From positions 665,501-729,500 of the forward strand of contig NZ_CP072648.1 of assembly GCF_018304825.1 (NCBI RefSeq): a stretch of 64,000 bases of DNA, in the 5' to 3' direction. Within the stretch, counting starts at the first letter, position 1. Every line of letters begins with the position of its first letter. A model generated the notes under the pieces. The model ran no database searches, was not told the origin of the DNA, and saw only the letters and a list, made by a program, of their open reading frames with translations. The position numbers and the translations under genes are program-made. Positions 28,909-35,012 of this stretch are shown in pieces. This stretch comes from Chloracidobacterium validum. GTDB taxonomy: Bacteria > Acidobacteriota > Blastocatellia > Chloracidobacteriales > Chloracidobacteriaceae.

Positions 28909-29754
28909 ATGCCGGTCAAAAAGCGTAACCTGGCCAATCCACACTTGCCCCAGCTCGAAGCGGCCCTTGCCAACGTTTATGGCTGGGCCGCGAATATGTC
29001 GTTGCGGACGGCGCTGCAAGCGGTTGTCACCGATAAGTCGCGGCGCTTGCTGTTCGATGAGATGACCTACTGCCGCGTCGCGGCACAGTCGCCGGGTGAG
29101 CTGCACTCCGTTGCCGAAGAAATCGCGCTTGGCGAAACCAGCTTTTTCCGCGAACCTGAGCAGTTTCGTGCGCTGTGGCGAATGGCGCTTCCCGATCTCA
29201 TTGAAAAACGCGCTGGCGTGAAGCGCCTGCGGCTGTGGAGTGCCGGTTGCTCGACTGGGGAAGAGCCGTTCTCACTTGCCATGATCTTGGAAGACTTGTT
29301 AGGCGACGCGGCCGACTGGCGGATTGAAATTCTGGCCGTGGACTTGCGTAGCAAGGCGCTTCTACAAGCCAGCCAGGGACGGTATCATCCGCTCCAGATG
29401 CGCAATCTCGATCCGACCTTGCGTGAACGGTTTTTCCACGGTGTTTACGCGCCAGACGCTCCGCCCGGTGAGCTTGACCGGCGGCTGCGGCGCAACATTC
29501 GCCTCCGCCACGCCAATCTCTACGATCCGCACCTGTGGCAACATCTACCGGGTCCGTTTGATGTCATTGTGTGCAGCAATGTGCTCACACACATGCACTA
29601 CACCGCGATTCAGCAGACGACGGCCCGGATTCAGCAGGCGCTCTTGCCCGGCGGCTATTTGCTTGTGGGGAGTACCGAGGCCGGACTGGTCAGCCAACCG
29701 CGCCTCCGGGCTGTACAAACCTTGCCGAGCGGATTTTTCCAGCGTTGCGCATAA
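28909..29754 (+). CDS. CheR-type SAM-dependent methyltransferase
   Basis: A 281-residue CheR family enzyme, which methylates glutamates of chemoreceptors or related proteins. Visible are ETSFFREPEQF, motif I LWSAGCSTGEEPFSLAMIL, EILAVDLRSKAL, the RNIRLRHANLYD strand and the FDVIVCSNVLTHMHYTAIQQ motif. The N-terminal helical domain is short. No chemotaxis gene (cheA, cheW, cheB, mcp) is adjacent, so the target is unknown. Confidence 0.9.
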   Translation: MPVKKRNLANPHLPQLEAALANVYGWAANMSLRTALQAVVTDKSRRLLFDEMTYCRVAAQSPGELHSVAEEIALGETSFFREPEQFRALWRMALPDLIEKRAGVKRLRLWSAGCSTGEEPFSLAMILEDLLGDAADWRIEILAVDLRSKALLQASQGRYHPLQMRNLDPTLRERFFHGVYAPDAPPGELDRRLRRNIRLRHANLYDPHLWQHLPGPFDVIVCSNVLTHMHYTAIQQTTARIQQALLPGGYLLVGSTEAGLVSQPRLRAVQTLPSGFFQRCA

Positions 29755-29800
29755 GGGGCGGGTAGCGCATCGCCCCGTGATCGCGCTACAAACGTTGGGC

Positions 29801-31987
29801 ATGATGAATCGTCGGCATTTTTTGTACTTATGCTGTTTAGCGTCAGGACTCTGGCTTGACGCGCCCGCGCAGCGTCGTCGCCCCAGCACGCCGCCCGTGC
29901 TGGGGCGGGCCAACTCGGCGCAACGGGCCTTTGCGCGGCTACTCCAGCTTGAAGACCAGCGATATTACCAGGAGGAAGCGTTCATAGACTTTCTTGGTTC
30001 CGCCAACGCGCGGGTGCGGCGGCGGGCCTGCTTGGCGCTGGGGCGGATTGGCGATAGCCAAGCCTATCGCCTGTTGCTGGAGCGGCTCTACGATGATGGC
30101 AACGCTCGTGTGCGGAGCGCCGCTGCCTTTGCCCTGGGTGAACTCGAAATCACCGAACCGCTGGAAGACCTGCGACGCACGCTCCTGCGCGAAGCTGAAG
30201 TGCGGCCGGTGCGGGGACGCTGCGCCGAAGCGTTGGGTAAAATTGTTGCCGCCAATGCCAAAACACTCGATGCCGACACCGTCCAGAACATGCTCGCCGC
30301 CGTGCTGGCGGCTCTTCCGCAACCGACCGAAGCCATCCCGGCTGACAGCGAACTGGAAACGTTCACGGGGCTGTGCCTGACGGCCGTAATGCGGATGCGC
30401 CAGGCGACCAGCCTGCCAACGCTCGTCAAGCAGTTGGCGTCGCCAAATGCGGCCATTCGCTTCCACGCGGCAAATGCGCTGGCACGGCTAAGCGATTTGC
30501 CTGAAGCTCAGCCGGCGCTCACCGGTGTGAGTGAGAAGCTGTTGCTTCACTTTCAAGCCGAGGAAACATCGGTTGTCCAGGCCGCGCTGGCGCGAACGCT
30601 GGGCCTGTTGGGAGACGCTGAAGCCACCCGCGCCTTGCTGAACCAATTGGTTTCGGAAGACGCTACCGTTCGGATTGCCGTTATCCGGGGGCTGGCCGCC
30701 ACGCGCGTTCCAGAGGAAGTCATCCCCCCGCTTGTGAAGCAGTTGGAAGCCGACCTGTCCGCTTATGTCGCCGTTGCCGAGCCTGACCGTCCGACGTGGT
30801 CAGGTCTCCCCCAGCTACTTACCTTAGCGGAAACGCTTGGCCGCTTGAAGGCGACGGCCGCTCAGTCGCAACTGGAGCGTTTGCGGACGTTGCCAACTGG
30901 GCGACTGGGCGCAAACCCGGAGGTTGAAGTCGCGCTGGCCCGGCTTGGCGCCGACGCCTTCTTCGGATCCGATGTGGAGTTCCCTTTGCTCCCGCCAGGT
31001 GATGATTGGCGCGCGCAGGCAAACTACTTTGCCGGTTTATCGGTTCTACCCTTAGATGAGCCACGCCGTCGCCATATCCTGGAGCAGTTTTTGGCGCAGG
31101 GTGATTTGGACGGCCGGGCACGGACGGCATTACTGGCAGCCGTGCCGAAAACGGTTGCGTGGGTTGCCGTTTGGGAAGCCGAGTTACGGCATCCAGATGT
31201 CATGGTGAGGTCGGCGGCCGCGACGGCGTTGAGCGCCTTGCCAGCCAAGGACACAACCCGTCAGGCGCTGATTGCCGCCTATGCCGCTGCCAAGGATGAC
31301 CCACAGAATGACGCTAAGCTGGCCGTGTTGGGCGCGTTGGCCCAGGACACCCACCCGGCTGCCCAGGATTGCCTAGAAGCCGCATTGCGTGATGCCGACT
31401 GGCTCGTACGCAAGCAGGTTGGTGAGGCACTGATTCGTCGGCTCACCTCTGCATCGGACGAAGAAGCCTATCAGTCGCAAGTGGAGGCGATTCGTCGCCG
31501 AATCGGGATTTGCCGCGTGAACCGCGCCGAGGCGTTTTACGGCCGGCTCATCCGCCAGTACGCGCGCCATCCCCGCGCCATCGTCACGACAACCAAAGGC
31601 GATCTGACGCTAGAGCTGTTTTCCGAAGACGCTCCGCTGACGGTTGAAAACTTCATCACGCTTGCCGAGCGTGGTTTTTTCAATGGGCTGACATTTCATC
31701 GGGTTGTGCCAAATTTTGTTGTCCAAGGTGGCGATCCACGAGGTGATGGCGATGGCGGACCAGGCTATCAAATCCGCTGTGAGATCAACGAACGTCCATA
31801 CCTTCGAGGTAGCGTTGGCATGGCCCTTTCGGGGAAGGACACCGGGGGCAGCCAGTGGTTTATCTGCCACCTCCCACAGCCACACTTGGACGGTGGCTAT
31901 ACCTGCTTCGCCCAAGTGGTTGAGGGCTTGGAGACACTTGACCGGCTTGTGCGTCAGGATCGGATCCTGGAAATCCGCGTTGTGTAG
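29801..31987 (+). CDS. HEAT-repeat protein fused to a C-terminal cyclophilin-type peptidyl-prolyl isomerase
   Basis: From ATG 29801 (MMNRRHFLYLCCLASGLWLDAPAQRRR, a signal peptide with possible lipobox-like Cys pair) the product has 728 residues. Residues about 45-550 are a run of HEAT/PBS-lyase-type helical repeats (VRRRACLALGRIGDSQAYRLLLERLYDDG, VRSAAAFALGELE, and so on). Residues about 585-728 are a cyclophilin: FITLAERGFFNGLTFHRVVPNFVVQGGDPRGDG, then GSVGMALSGKDTGGSQWFICHLPQPHLDGGYTCFAQVVEG. The catalytic Arg of FHRVVP and the Gln of VQGG are kept. It is likely a periplasmic folding factor with a large scaffold. Confidence 0.93.
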   Translation: MMNRRHFLYLCCLASGLWLDAPAQRRRPSTPPVLGRANSAQRAFARLLQLEDQRYYQEEAFIDFLGSANARVRRRACLALGRIGDSQAYRLLLERLYDDGNARVRSAAAFALGELEITEPLEDLRRTLLREAEVRPVRGRCAEALGKIVAANAKTLDADTVQNMLAAVLAALPQPTEAIPADSELETFTGLCLTAVMRMRQATSLPTLVKQLASPNAAIRFHAANALARLSDLPEAQPALTGVSEKLLLHFQAEETSVVQAALARTLGLLGDAEATRALLNQLVSEDATVRIAVIRGLAATRVPEEVIPPLVKQLEADLSAYVAVAEPDRPTWSGLPQLLTLAETLGRLKATAAQSQLERLRTLPTGRLGANPEVEVALARLGADAFFGSDVEFPLLPPGDDWRAQANYFAGLSVLPLDEPRRRHILEQFLAQGDLDGRARTALLAAVPKTVAWVAVWEAELRHPDVMVRSAAATALSALPAKDTTRQALIAAYAAAKDDPQNDAKLAVLGALAQDTHPAAQDCLEAALRDADWLVRKQVGEALIRRLTSASDEEAYQSQVEAIRRRIGICRVNRAEAFYGRLIRQYARHPRAIVTTTKGDLTLELFSEDAPLTVENFITLAERGFFNGLTFHRVVPNFVVQGGDPRGDGDGGPGYQIRCEINERPYLRGSVGMALSGKDTGGSQWFICHLPQPHLDGGYTCFAQVVEGLETLDRLVRQDRILEIRVV

Positions 31988-32207: not shown

Positions 32208-32326
32208 GTCACTGATGACAGACTCATGAGCCTTGGTCAATCGGGCGGGCGTTGCACAGTGGGTTTTTGGCCTTTACACTGCACTACCGCAGGGCTAGCG
32301 AAACCTGGGCCACGGAGGGCAACGGC

Positions 32327-32614
32327 ATGGAGACGAAGCCAACCATTGAAACGGTATTGGAACGGATGGCTGAACAGACGGCGATACTACAAGCCCTAGC
32401 AGCGGAAGTCGCCGGACTGAAGACGGAAGTTGCCGGACTGAAGACGGAAGTCGCCGGACTGAAGACTTGGGTTCAGGAACTTGATACCCGTGCTCGGCGG
32501 ATCGAAAACCGCGTCAACGTCCTTGGCCAAGACGTGCTTGACGTGCGCGCTTACCTCCAGCGGATCGACATGAGGCTCGACACTGAAGTCGCCAGCATCA
32601 AAGTTGCCGGGTAG
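32327..32614 (+). CDS. small coiled-coil protein with EVAGLKT heptad repeats
   Basis: From ATG 32327, with GGAGGG upstream, the protein has 95 residues. Three identical seven-residue units (EVAGLKT, 21-base DNA repeat) sit in a long helix that continues to LDTRARRIENRVNVLGQDVLDVRAYLQRIDMRLDTEV. The whole protein is probably one coiled coil. No enzymatic domain is seen and no function can be named. It is convergent with the MauE/DoxX gene, 12 bases apart. Confidence 0.7.
   Translation: METKPTIETVLERMAEQTAILQALAAEVAGLKTEVAGLKTEVAGLKTWVQELDTRARRIENRVNVLGQDVLDVRAYLQRIDMRLDTEVASIKVAG
32403..32465 (+). repeat. 21-bp coding direct repeats (EVAGLKT x3)
   Basis: Three consecutive 21-base units, nearly identical, encode EVAGLKT in the small coiled-coil gene. 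As in the Uma2 tail, the period equals one heptad. Confidence 0.85.
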
Positions 32615-32626
32615 CCACACCAGGCA

Positions 32627-33583
32627 TCACTTTCTGGCGCGGACCCGACGCACTTCCTCCGGCGTTGGGGGATCGATATTCCACGTCGCCAGAACCTTTC
32701 CGTTGCGCAGCAACACCAGCCGGGGCGTATCGCCATCCGCGAGCAGGCGCTTGAAGTCGTCCTTGGAAATTTCACCTAACTCAAACTTGGCGCTAAACCG
32801 CTGGACAAAAAACTTGCGGCGCCAATCTTCATTCGAGCAAAGCGCCACGAAGGTTGGAAAATCCTTCAGTCCGACATAGGCATTGAGCTTAGGAACGCTC
32901 TCCTGGCAGTGGGTACACTCGGTGTCGATCAGGGCCACGAGCCGCTCGCCGGCTGCCACACTGATCGTCGTTCCAGAGACTTTGACACTCGACCAGTTGT
33001 CTCCGCCCAGCGGAAAACCAAACGCCAGCGGCGTCAACAACCCAACCGCTGCGCATAACGCAACGACCACCCCGCGCCAGCGGGTTCGCTCGGCGTGGGG
33101 TGGTGTATTCGACCGCCAGACAAGCCATCCGGCGACCAGCGTTACAGTCAACATCACCATATCCTCCACGATGGCTTCCTTGGGGCTGCGTTTGAACTGC
33201 GACCCAAAGCAGCCACAATCTTCAACTGGAATCCCGGCCACGACGACCCAACCCAAAGCTCCGAGAAATACCAGCGTTAGCAACCCGGCCCCAATCAGCG
33301 CCCACCGCAGACGATAGCCAATGATGAGCGCACCGCCGAGTGTGCACTCCACCACGAGCAGTCCCCAGGCCGTTACCGTTTGAAGCCGTCCACTGGGTAC
33401 GAGTTGGAAGCTGGCAACTTGCCGCGCGAAGTCAAAGGGCTCAAGTGCCTTGGTGACACCAGCAAAAAGCCAGACAACGCCAAGCAGCACAGCTAGGAAC
33501 CAGCCGACATAGGCGCGGCGGGGCAGCGTCGTGGCGGTAGCCAGCGGCGATTGGGTAGTTGGGTGAGTTTGTTCGTCAGTCAT
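32627..33583 (-). CDS. MauE/DoxX-type membrane protein fused to a thioredoxin-like domain
   Basis: A 318-residue protein. Residues about 25-160 are a four-helix DoxX/MauE domain with the redox motif DCGCFG (Cys123, Cys125) in a loop, as in MauE-like electron carriers. A fifth helix (about 170-190) leads to a periplasmic thioredoxin-like domain with a CTHC active site (Cys223, Cys226) after VALIDTE, and the cis-Pro-like segment GDTPRLVLLRNGKV. It probably passes electrons or disulfides across the membrane. The start codon overlaps the E2-like gene's stop by four bases (ATGA), so the two are translationally coupled. Confidence 0.85.
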   Translation of the reverse strand: MTDEQTHPTTQSPLATATTLPRRAYVGWFLAVLLGVVWLFAGVTKALEPFDFARQVASFQLVPSGRLQTVTAWGLLVVECTLGGALIIGYRLRWALIGAGLLTLVFLGALGWVVVAGIPVEDCGCFGSQFKRSPKEAIVEDMVMLTVTLVAGWLVWRSNTPPHAERTRWRGVVVALCAAVGLLTPLAFGFPLGGDNWSSVKVSGTTISVAAGERLVALIDTECTHCQESVPKLNAYVGLKDFPTFVALCSNEDWRRKFFVQRFSAKFELGEISKDDFKRLLADGDTPRLVLLRNGKVLATWNIDPPTPEEVRRVRARK

Positions 33584-34167
33584 GAGCGAATTTGAAAGCG
33601 ATGGCCAGGTTGTGCGCGGTCGCCAGTTGGGTTGTTGGTCGTGCGCGGCGGTATGACACGCTTAACCACAAAGGTGTGGGTCGGCTTGTCACCGGGGAGC
33701 GGCAACTGCGTTTGATCGCAGGGAAACAAGGTCGGGTTGGCATAGAACCAGTCAGCGGCCTTGTAGTTGGCAATGCTGTGGGGATCGATCAGTTGTGGGT
33801 CAAACTGAAACAACCGCGCCAGCTTGATCACGAATGAAGCCAGCCCTTCGCGGAAATCCCACTGTCCGATGCAAATTTTCCCGTCTGGCCACACGTGGGG
33901 ATGAAAGATTGGTGTCATGCCATGCATCATCACTGTCGGTTTCTCAAAGGGGTGATTCGGTGACAGGAGGATCCGAATCTGGTGCTCGTCGCGGGTTGTG
34001 TTGGGTCCGATATAGCTGCGTACCCGAAAAGTCACAATGTAATCCGTCGCCGGAAAATCATTGTTTTGCCAATGAACGTATTCACCCCGAATGGTGCGCA
34101 TCTCCTCGTAGTCGGCCGCAAGTCGGGCGCGACGAACATCATCAGGCGTCGCCATGAGAACCGTCAT
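33580..34167 (-). CDS. ubiquitin-conjugating enzyme E2-like (UBC fold) protein
   Basis: The 195 residues follow the E2 plan closely: N-terminal helix (about 8-25), strands YIVTFRVRSYIG and EHQIRILLSPNHPFEKPTVMM, the diagnostic block IFHPHVWPDGKICIGQW with a candidate catalytic Cys99, then helices with FQFDPQLIDPHSIANYKAADWFY. Eukaryotic E2s read HPN where this reads HPH (89-91), so the oxyanion Asn is replaced by His. A 50-residue polar tail follows. ATG 34155 is an alternative start. It is coupled to the MauE/DoxX-thioredoxin gene; no E1, JAB or ubiquitin-like gene is adjacent. Family membership is by motif; activity is unknown. Confidence 0.8.
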   Translation of the reverse strand: MTVLMATPDDVRRARLAADYEEMRTIRGEYVHWQNNDFPATDYIVTFRVRSYIGPNTTRDEHQIRILLSPNHPFEKPTVMMHGMTPIFHPHVWPDGKICIGQWDFREGLASFVIKLARLFQFDPQLIDPHSIANYKAADWFYANPTLFPCDQTQLPLPGDKPTHTFVVKRVIPPRTTNNPTGDRAQPGHRFQIRS

Positions 34168-34277: not shown

Positions 34278-35012
34278 ATGGAAAGTCCCATCGTTTTTCA
34301 AGGTTCAGAAAAAGCGCAACGTATCCAAGCGATGTTTGCTGGTATTGCGCCGACATACGACCAGCTCAATCACTGGCTATCACTCAACATTGATAAACGC
34401 TGGCGACGCGCGGCCGTTCAAGAAGTTGCCGATGCCTTGGCTCGTCCTGGCGCACAAGCTCTCGATGTATGTTGTGGCACAGCCGACTTGGCTATCGAGC
34501 TTGGTCGGCTCGTGCCAACCGTTGGGGTGGACTTCTGCCAACCCATGCTCAAGCGTGGGATGGAAAAAGTCCGCCAGAGTGGTCATCCGGTGACGTTGCT
34601 GGCAGGTGATGCGCTGGCACTCCCCTTTGCCGATGCAAGTTTTGACGCCGTTACGGTTGCTTTTGGCATCCGTAACGTCGTGGACTTAGACGGTGCGCTA
34701 GCCGAAATGCACCGTGTTCTGAAGCCAGGTGGCAAGGTGGCTATTCTAGAGTTCTCCCACCCGGTTGTTCCGGGCCTCAAACAGTTGTTCGGATTGTACT
34801 TCACCCAGATTTTGCCACGCATTGGCAATGCCATCTCAGGGTCGGGCTATGCGTACTCATACTTGCCGGAGTCGGTGCAGCACTTTCCAAGTCAGTCCGC
34901 GCTGGCTGCGCATATGAGACAGGCTGGCTTTGAGAATGTACGGTGGCGCAATTTGTCCGGTGGGATTGCGGCGTTGCACACTGGGCTGAAACCAGTGGTT
35001 GCCTGTTCGTAG
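34278..35012 (+). CDS. ubiE: demethylmenaquinone/ubiquinone methyltransferase UbiE/MenG
   Basis: SAM-dependent C-methyltransferase of the last step(s) of menaquinone synthesis. The 244 residues contain MFAGIAPTYDQLNHWLSLNIDKRWRR, SAM motif I (ALDVCCGTADLAIELG), FADASFDAVTVAFGIRNVVDLDGALAEMHRVLKPGG and the second signature YAYSYLPESVQHFPSQSALAAHM. All are canonical. It is divergent from the E2-like gene. The stop codon lies in a perfect 12-base tandem duplication. In an acidobacterium the product is expected to act on menaquinone (MenG). Confidence 0.95.
   Translation: MESPIVFQGSEKAQRIQAMFAGIAPTYDQLNHWLSLNIDKRWRRAAVQEVADALARPGAQALDVCCGTADLAIELGRLVPTVGVDFCQPMLKRGMEKVRQSGHPVTLLAGDALALPFADASFDAVTVAFGIRNVVDLDGALAEMHRVLKPGGKVAILEFSHPVVPGLKQLFGLYFTQILPRIGNAISGSGYAYSYLPESVQHFPSQSALAAHMRQAGFENVRWRNLSGGIAALHTGLKPVVACS

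Follow-up and report, generated by a model that had tools for sequence, protein, structure and literature searches.

An E2-type protein of Chloracidobacterium validum and its probable place in a dispersed ubiquitin-like conjugation pathway

Most of what is known of bacterial conjugation of ubiquitin-like proteins (UBLs) comes from clustered operons linked with phage defence or stress. The stretch of Chloracidobacterium validum DNA analysed here (contig NZ_CP072648.1, positions 665,501 to 729,500; 64,000 nucleotides, hereafter 'the window') encodes an E2-like protein with none of the usual genes around it, and this raises the question of whether such a protein acts alone or belongs to a pathway whose other genes lie elsewhere.

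The E2-type gene and its neighbours

The open frame at window positions 33580–34167 on the minus strand (C1, 699083–699667 in the coordinates of its own genome) encodes 195 aa; since the orthologues begin M[AG]TP, translation probably starts at the second ATG, position 34155, giving a predicted UBL-conjugating enzyme of 191 aa (33580–34155). The gene is single-copy in its genome. The window protein matches Pfam UQ_con at E=6e-5 with 23.1 bits, against a curated cut-off of 27, and PDB sequences of the Rad6/Ube2 type at E~2e-4; a relative encoded at an acidobacterial locus, L046, scores 37.6 bits with UQ_con. Structure prediction with AF2, for which an alignment of 30 homologues served as input (a model from the 14 close orthologues alone was poor, with a pLDDT of 43, and was superseded), yielded a pLDDT of 83.6 and a pTM of 0.75, with core values above 90. 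The model has the UBC fold, comprising a helix, a four-strand meander, an active-site flap and two C-terminal helices; every top match in the PDB was an E2 (Foldseek E 3e-7), and VIA comparison with PDB E2s gave Z scores of up to 13.7 over 129 residues. Sequence and predicted structure together confirm that the gene encodes a genuine E2-type UBC-fold protein, in agreement with a preliminary description that had recognised an E2 core at family spacing from the letters alone.

That description had also placed a cysteine at the thioester position, and had named beforehand a predicted structure lacking the UBC fold, or loss of this cysteine among close homologues, as grounds for abandoning its reading; the fold is found and the cysteine is kept. 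Cys99 of the 195-aa frame (Cys95 of the 191-aa form; codon 33871–33873, minus strand) is invariant in all 14 orthologues of the order and in all 30 divergent homologues aligned, the thioester itself being a prediction, and His85 (191-aa numbering) is equally invariant in the same 30. This histidine position belongs to an HPH motif (33895–33903, minus strand) that replaces the HPN of classical E2s, as had been noted before; the replacement is invariant across the order, the motif aligns with that of PDB entry 2a7l, and with the cysteine at His+10 the HPH-x7-C spacing equals the HPN-x7-C spacing of eukaryotic E2s. Residues 157–191 (33583–33687, minus strand) form a tail predicted to be disordered (pLDDT <50) that carries THTFVVK and a terminal RFQIR; the corresponding patterns are TFxxK, present in 14/14 genomes, and a terminal [RKT]Fx[ILV][RK], present in 13/14. 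Within the genus, pN/pS of the gene is 0.094.

Downstream, a MauE/DoxX-thioredoxin gene (32627–33583, minus strand; Pfam MauE, 2.5e-24) shares four bases with the E2 gene (33583–33580). The overlap is just as the preliminary description had it; the redox or membrane coupling that it derived from this overlap is not borne out. The MauE gene lies next to E2 in five of the seven genomes of the genus, does not adjoin it in G004, in G006 or in any other genus (0/7 in the rest of the order), and was rejected as a conserved E2 partner because only 5 of the 14 order genomes have it there. It stands outside the conjugation system. On the other side, a divergent ubiE/menG methyltransferase gene (34278–35012, plus strand; TIGR01934, 4e-76) adjoins E2 in 9 of the 10 genomes of family f1; it marks the flank of the E2 locus in that family and is not part of the system. 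Two further window genes deserve mention in their own right: one on the plus strand (29324–31987) whose product joins HEAT repeats to a cyclophilin-type prolyl isomerase domain at its C-terminus, with relatives in two congeners, and a coiled-coil ORF (32252–32614, plus strand) with internal 'AGLKTEV' repeats that is kept in some congeners.

Partner genes and gene order

The E2 was searched for in 98 relatives, namely the 14 sampled genomes of the order (G000–G013, in families f1 and f2, with G000 being the C. validum genome itself) and 84 others of the class. Each of the 14 has one E2 orthologue, and a single weak relative was found among the 84. In the four f2 genomes, E2 lies on the same strand as, and downstream of, genes for a ThiF-type E1, one or two small zinc-ribbon/transmembrane (Zn/TM) proteins and a UBL of 82–92 aa ending ...NTRGG-x. 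The order E1-Zn/TM-UBL-E2-JAB is contiguous in G011 and G013; in G012 a gap of ~1.9 kb precedes JAB, and in G010 JAB is on another contig. Profiles built from these f2 operon proteins and run on the 14 order genomes detected UBL, JAB and Zn/TM in all of them, as is the case for E2, and a full-length system-type E1 in 13; in G008 the UBL contig breaks off at this point, and the E1 matches are therefore no better than paralogue-level. The C. validum genes fall at three loci on C1: E1 (159888–161099), Zn/TM (161252–161545) and UBL (161584–161829) at ~160 kb, E2 at 699 kb, and JAB (1391780–1392430) at 1,392 kb. UBL and JAB are each single-copy, and further ThiF/MoeB-type proteins are encoded. The earlier remark that no E1, JAB or UBL gene lies beside E2 is right, the nearest UBL, JAB and system-type E1 all being >500 kb away by profile search; its corollary, a stand-alone lineage, fails, as the f2 orthologues sit in E1-Zn/TM-UBL-E2-JAB operons and every partner is found elsewhere in the same genome. 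The survey of homologue neighbourhoods that it had proposed turned up no conserved redox partner and led, through the f2 operons, to the distant E1 and UBL genes of C. validum.

The intermediate arrangements lie in the sister genera. E1-Zn/TM-UBL are adjacent throughout the order wherever the contig permits. In the f1 genera g2–g4, E2 adjoins JAB, and both are away from E1-Zn/TM-UBL; in genus g1, E2 is parted from JAB, which keeps the RNase D gene that follows JAB in G008, and E2 keeps as its neighbour the divergent ubiE gene, which adjoins it in G007 and G009 too. By gene order, a single operon has been broken up stepwise, with intermediates surviving in sister genera. Trees of E1, JAB and E2 each split f2, f1 and g1 with high support, as would be the case under vertical inheritance. 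Given that the genes are dispersed in C. validum and are not co-transcribed, the link between E2 and its partners rests on orthology with f2 and on co-occurrence, the latter being measured within one clade, where co-inheritance is confounded with functional coupling. 

Some other genes were encountered near these loci. A 127-aa gene matching no Pfam family (L140:8901–9284, plus strand) overlaps the start of JAB by 4 bp in all seven genomes of the genus. A divergent PP2C phosphatase gene (L027:3518–5656, minus strand, and equivalents) accompanies the E1 operon in G011, G012 and G013, and in G011 and G013 an FHA/zinc-ribbon gene is present as well, a possible link to Ser/Thr phosphorylation. Most order genomes encode PF00227 proteins, one HslV-sized and one weaker match of ~246 aa (C1:657626 and C2:333020 in C. 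validum); a proteasome link was considered and rejected, as nothing about these matches pointed to a 20S proteasome.

The UBL has a core of exactly 81 residues that forms a single domain and shows no indels in 14/14 genomes. Core identity between f1 and f2 is 78.7%, and at equal distance the UBL is 84.6% identical versus 68.0% for the product of the neighbouring S1-like gene. Conservation stops at RGG, beyond which tails of 0–21 unrelated residues follow: in three genomes the stop codon comes directly after RGG, and in the others 1–21 residues intervene. Core, RGG and variable tail are what ubiquitin-like precursors look like, and we regard the protein as a putative one. Its Pfam matches are weak (YukD, 9e-5; Rad60-SLD, which is SUMO-like, 9e-5; ubiquitin, 0.018). 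In all 14 genomes the core contains no cysteine and a single lysine, K15, so that chains would be possible only via K15 or the N-terminus. Within the genus, pN/pS is 0.07 for UBL and ~0.22 for E1 and JAB. 

The E1 (Pfam ThiF, 3e-44) is a protein of its own, about 420 aa long (396–439 aa in f2), with a single ThiF domain and an intact adenylation domain. Its sequence includes the motifs GAGALGNE and LSR; a YDSC cysteine before a P-x-[VI]QVTSA segment is present in 12 of 13 genomes, the one E1 not fitting the pattern used being that of G012. By its position, this cysteine is a candidate for the catalytic residue. The JAB protein (Pfam JAB, 2e-7) has its JAMM motif, HTHPGFGVFMSGTD (HxHx7Sx2D), intact in 14/14 genomes. 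The Zn/TM protein, which matched no Pfam family, is small, with an N-terminal transmembrane segment and a C-terminal CxxCH...CxxC zinc ribbon, and its gene adjoins that of UBL in 14/14 genomes. A single zinc ribbon has fewer ligands than a RING requires, and an E3 label would therefore be unfounded; that the protein serves as an adaptor or membrane anchor is our guess.

Its zinc ribbon has counterparts throughout the order. An order-specific domain of the form [FL]x[IV][KR]x7RCE[IV]CHQxDxF...CxRC, in most cases joined to transmembrane segments (L139:10229–10549, L125, L131 and L184–L199 among others), has two copies in each genome of genus g1 and up to 46 elsewhere; at 1e-6 it was found in none of 29 sister genomes, and its spread coincides with that of the UBL system, both within one clade. 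Separately, an F-x-[VI]-[KR] motif occurs twice in the E2 tail, in the JAB N-terminus and in the Zn/TM protein, against a background of 0.37 per 1000 residues. We rejected it as a common docking motif: the copy in the Zn/TM protein stands at a constant spacing ahead of the zinc ribbon and recurs across a large family, which leaves those of E2 and JAB as the only possible linear motifs.

Outside the order, relatives of the window E2 are scattered. Close database records come from Chloracidobacterium and Blastocatellia MAGs (75–91% identity), a single-sequence search of genome contigs returned 5 close relatives only, and the E2 profile hit 24 of 396 genomes of the phylum Acidobacteriota, 7 from this order and the remainder sporadic. 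Most of the divergent E2s of the phylum with a readable neighbourhood adjoin UBL, E1 or JAB genes; UBL/E1/JAB operons could be read in G259, G121, G017, G132 and G015, and E1, UBL or JAB lay within the short flanks read for L174–L178 and L181. No recognised UBL, E1 or JAB gene was present within 1.5 kb of the relatives at L170–L172. A search with E2 of 72,556 plasmids and of viral contigs gave no match. Two of these loci have features of their own. In G015 (L030:5777–11504, plus strand) a UBL-E2 fusion is clustered with genes for E1 and JAB, for a RING-like zinc protein and for a TIR protein carrying UBL-like domains. In G259 (L046:7765–10228 onward, plus strand) a complete E1-UBL-E2(HPH)-JAB operon stands just upstream of T6SS genes (tssK/L/M-like).

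Proposed pathway and competing readings

Taken together, these comparisons suggest that the window protein is very probably the E2 of a complete, vertically inherited UBL pathway whose genes are dispersed on the chromosome. In such a pathway, JAB or a similar peptidase would trim the UBL tail, where one exists, after the diglycine; E1 would adenylate the UBL C-terminus and load the UBL onto a cysteine, for which that of YDSC is the candidate; the UBL would then pass to Cys99 of E2 and on to an amino group of substrates, from which JAB could take it off again for recycling. The Zn/TM protein, always encoded next to UBL, probably acts at the membrane by recruiting E2 or substrate. Vertical inheritance and strong purifying selection make a role in normal cell physiology most likely, rather than one in a mobile defence island. 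Order-wide vertical inheritance, dispersal and a UBL among the most conserved proteins examined is, as far as sequences can tell, the pattern of a housekeeping modifier. A fuller picture, which we offer tentatively as a possibility that the balance is somewhat against, is that of an order-wide housekeeping ubiquitin system with a tailed, near-invariant UBL, a dedicated E1, an HPH E2 marking N-termini rather than lysines in the manner of Ube2w, a membrane zinc-ribbon adaptor, and genes that have left their ancestral operon as in eukaryotes.

The pathway might instead be an anti-phage system of the Bil, Bub or CBASS kind that has become fixed in the order and protects the cell by putting UBL on phage proteins. 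E1, E2 and JAB do match the PADLOC models E1-E2, E2 and JAB, weakly to moderately, and acidobacterial relatives have TIR, RING-like or T6SS genes as neighbours (L030, L046). Defence systems are, however, usually patchy and clustered, and this one is present in 14/14 order genomes, vertically inherited and spread over up to three loci, with an E2 that has no counterpart in the plasmids or viral contigs searched and a UBL that evolves more slowly than the ribosomal S1-like protein; we consider a defence role unlikely. 

More improbable still is that the UBL is a sulphur carrier of the MoaD/ThiS type, served by E1 and JAB, with an E2-like protein that has lost its conjugating function. E1s of this size are relatives of ThiF and MoeB, and JABs are found in sulphur-carrier operons too; yet the E2 retains its cysteine, HPH motif and whole core at a pN/pS of 0.09, the genome has other ThiF/MoeB-type proteins, and tails that vary beyond GG are a typical trait of protein modifiers. 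Finally, a stand-alone E2-like protein acting with MauE/thioredoxin in a redox or membrane thiol pathway, to which the ATGA overlap and the shared neighbourhood in five congeners had pointed, is hardly credible when MauE is missing beside E2 in two congeners and in the other genera and UBL, E1 and JAB are found in every genome.

If the window protein does belong to a dispersed conjugation pathway, an E2 that looks like an 'orphan' can reveal a system that operon surveys overlook, and the cultivated relatives within the genus would provide a test bed for why a bacterium depends on ubiquitin-like modification.

Comparison with known systems

Bacterial sets of UBL, E1, E2 and JAB have been predicted since 2006 (Iyer type 6d being among them; PMC1779556). 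The present system resembles type 6d in having separate UBL, E1-like, E2-like and JAB proteins that would form a conjugation/deconjugation set. Type 6d E2s lack the classical histidine, have a histidine after the cysteine and are accompanied by a rapidly evolving helical protein (PMC1779556), whereas this system has the HPx histidine, a TM/zinc-ribbon partner and, in C. validum, three loci. Conjugation has been proven in Bil and related systems (PMC11354881). Bil likewise combines UBL, E1, E2 and JAB, but there BilA has two UBL domains, BilB a CEHH active site and BilD an inactive and an active adenylation domain (PMC11354881), in contrast to a single 81-aa UBL, an HPH E2 and an E1 with one ThiF domain here. 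In CBASS type II (Cap2/Cap3), E2 and E1 are fused and lie beside a cGAS-like gene, unlike the separate 191-aa E2 and ~420-aa E1 of the order. Bub comprises operons from diverse bacteria that encode ubiquitination-like conjugation and are putatively immune, with the immune role given as not demonstrated (PMC13373217), and these operons often include CapW, CapH/P or CapK/S stress regulators; the comparison with Bub is by description only. Surveys based on operons would miss a system dispersed like that of C. validum. Bacterial UBL conjugation sets as such are already known; the order-wide, dispersed form with an HPH E2 is apparently undescribed, no account of it having been found in the literature searched.

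A close likeness is to the G259 operon at L046, which encodes an HPH E2 with HPHVWPNGTVCLG, a UBL, an E1 of equal architecture and a JAB. Its E2 is 31–32% identical, it is one sporadic locus by T6SS genes rather than an order-wide dispersed set, and no zinc-ribbon/TM partner for it was found at 1e-6. The HPH motif is not peculiar to the window protein: it occurs in this operon as well and is the signature of the eukaryotic Ube2w family, whose members modify N-terminal α-amino groups and in which the second histidine replaces the oxyanion-stabilising asparagine (PMC4630614, PMC11649903). Human Ube2w (2a7l) is the best PDB match of the E2 orthologue profile (E 3e-4; HPHVYSNGHICL in 2a7l versus HPHVWPDGKVCI), and the window E2 shares with UbcA1 and human UBE2W both HPH in place of HPN and the His-to-Cys spacing. 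It differs in having its tryptophan at Cys+4 (CIGQW) and none at Cys+8, where UbcA1 (C93, W101) has one (PMC4630614). With the Cys+8 tryptophan of Ube2w missing, HPH is a lead rather than a sign of membership in that family, and by analogy transfer to N-termini would be a possible mode of action.
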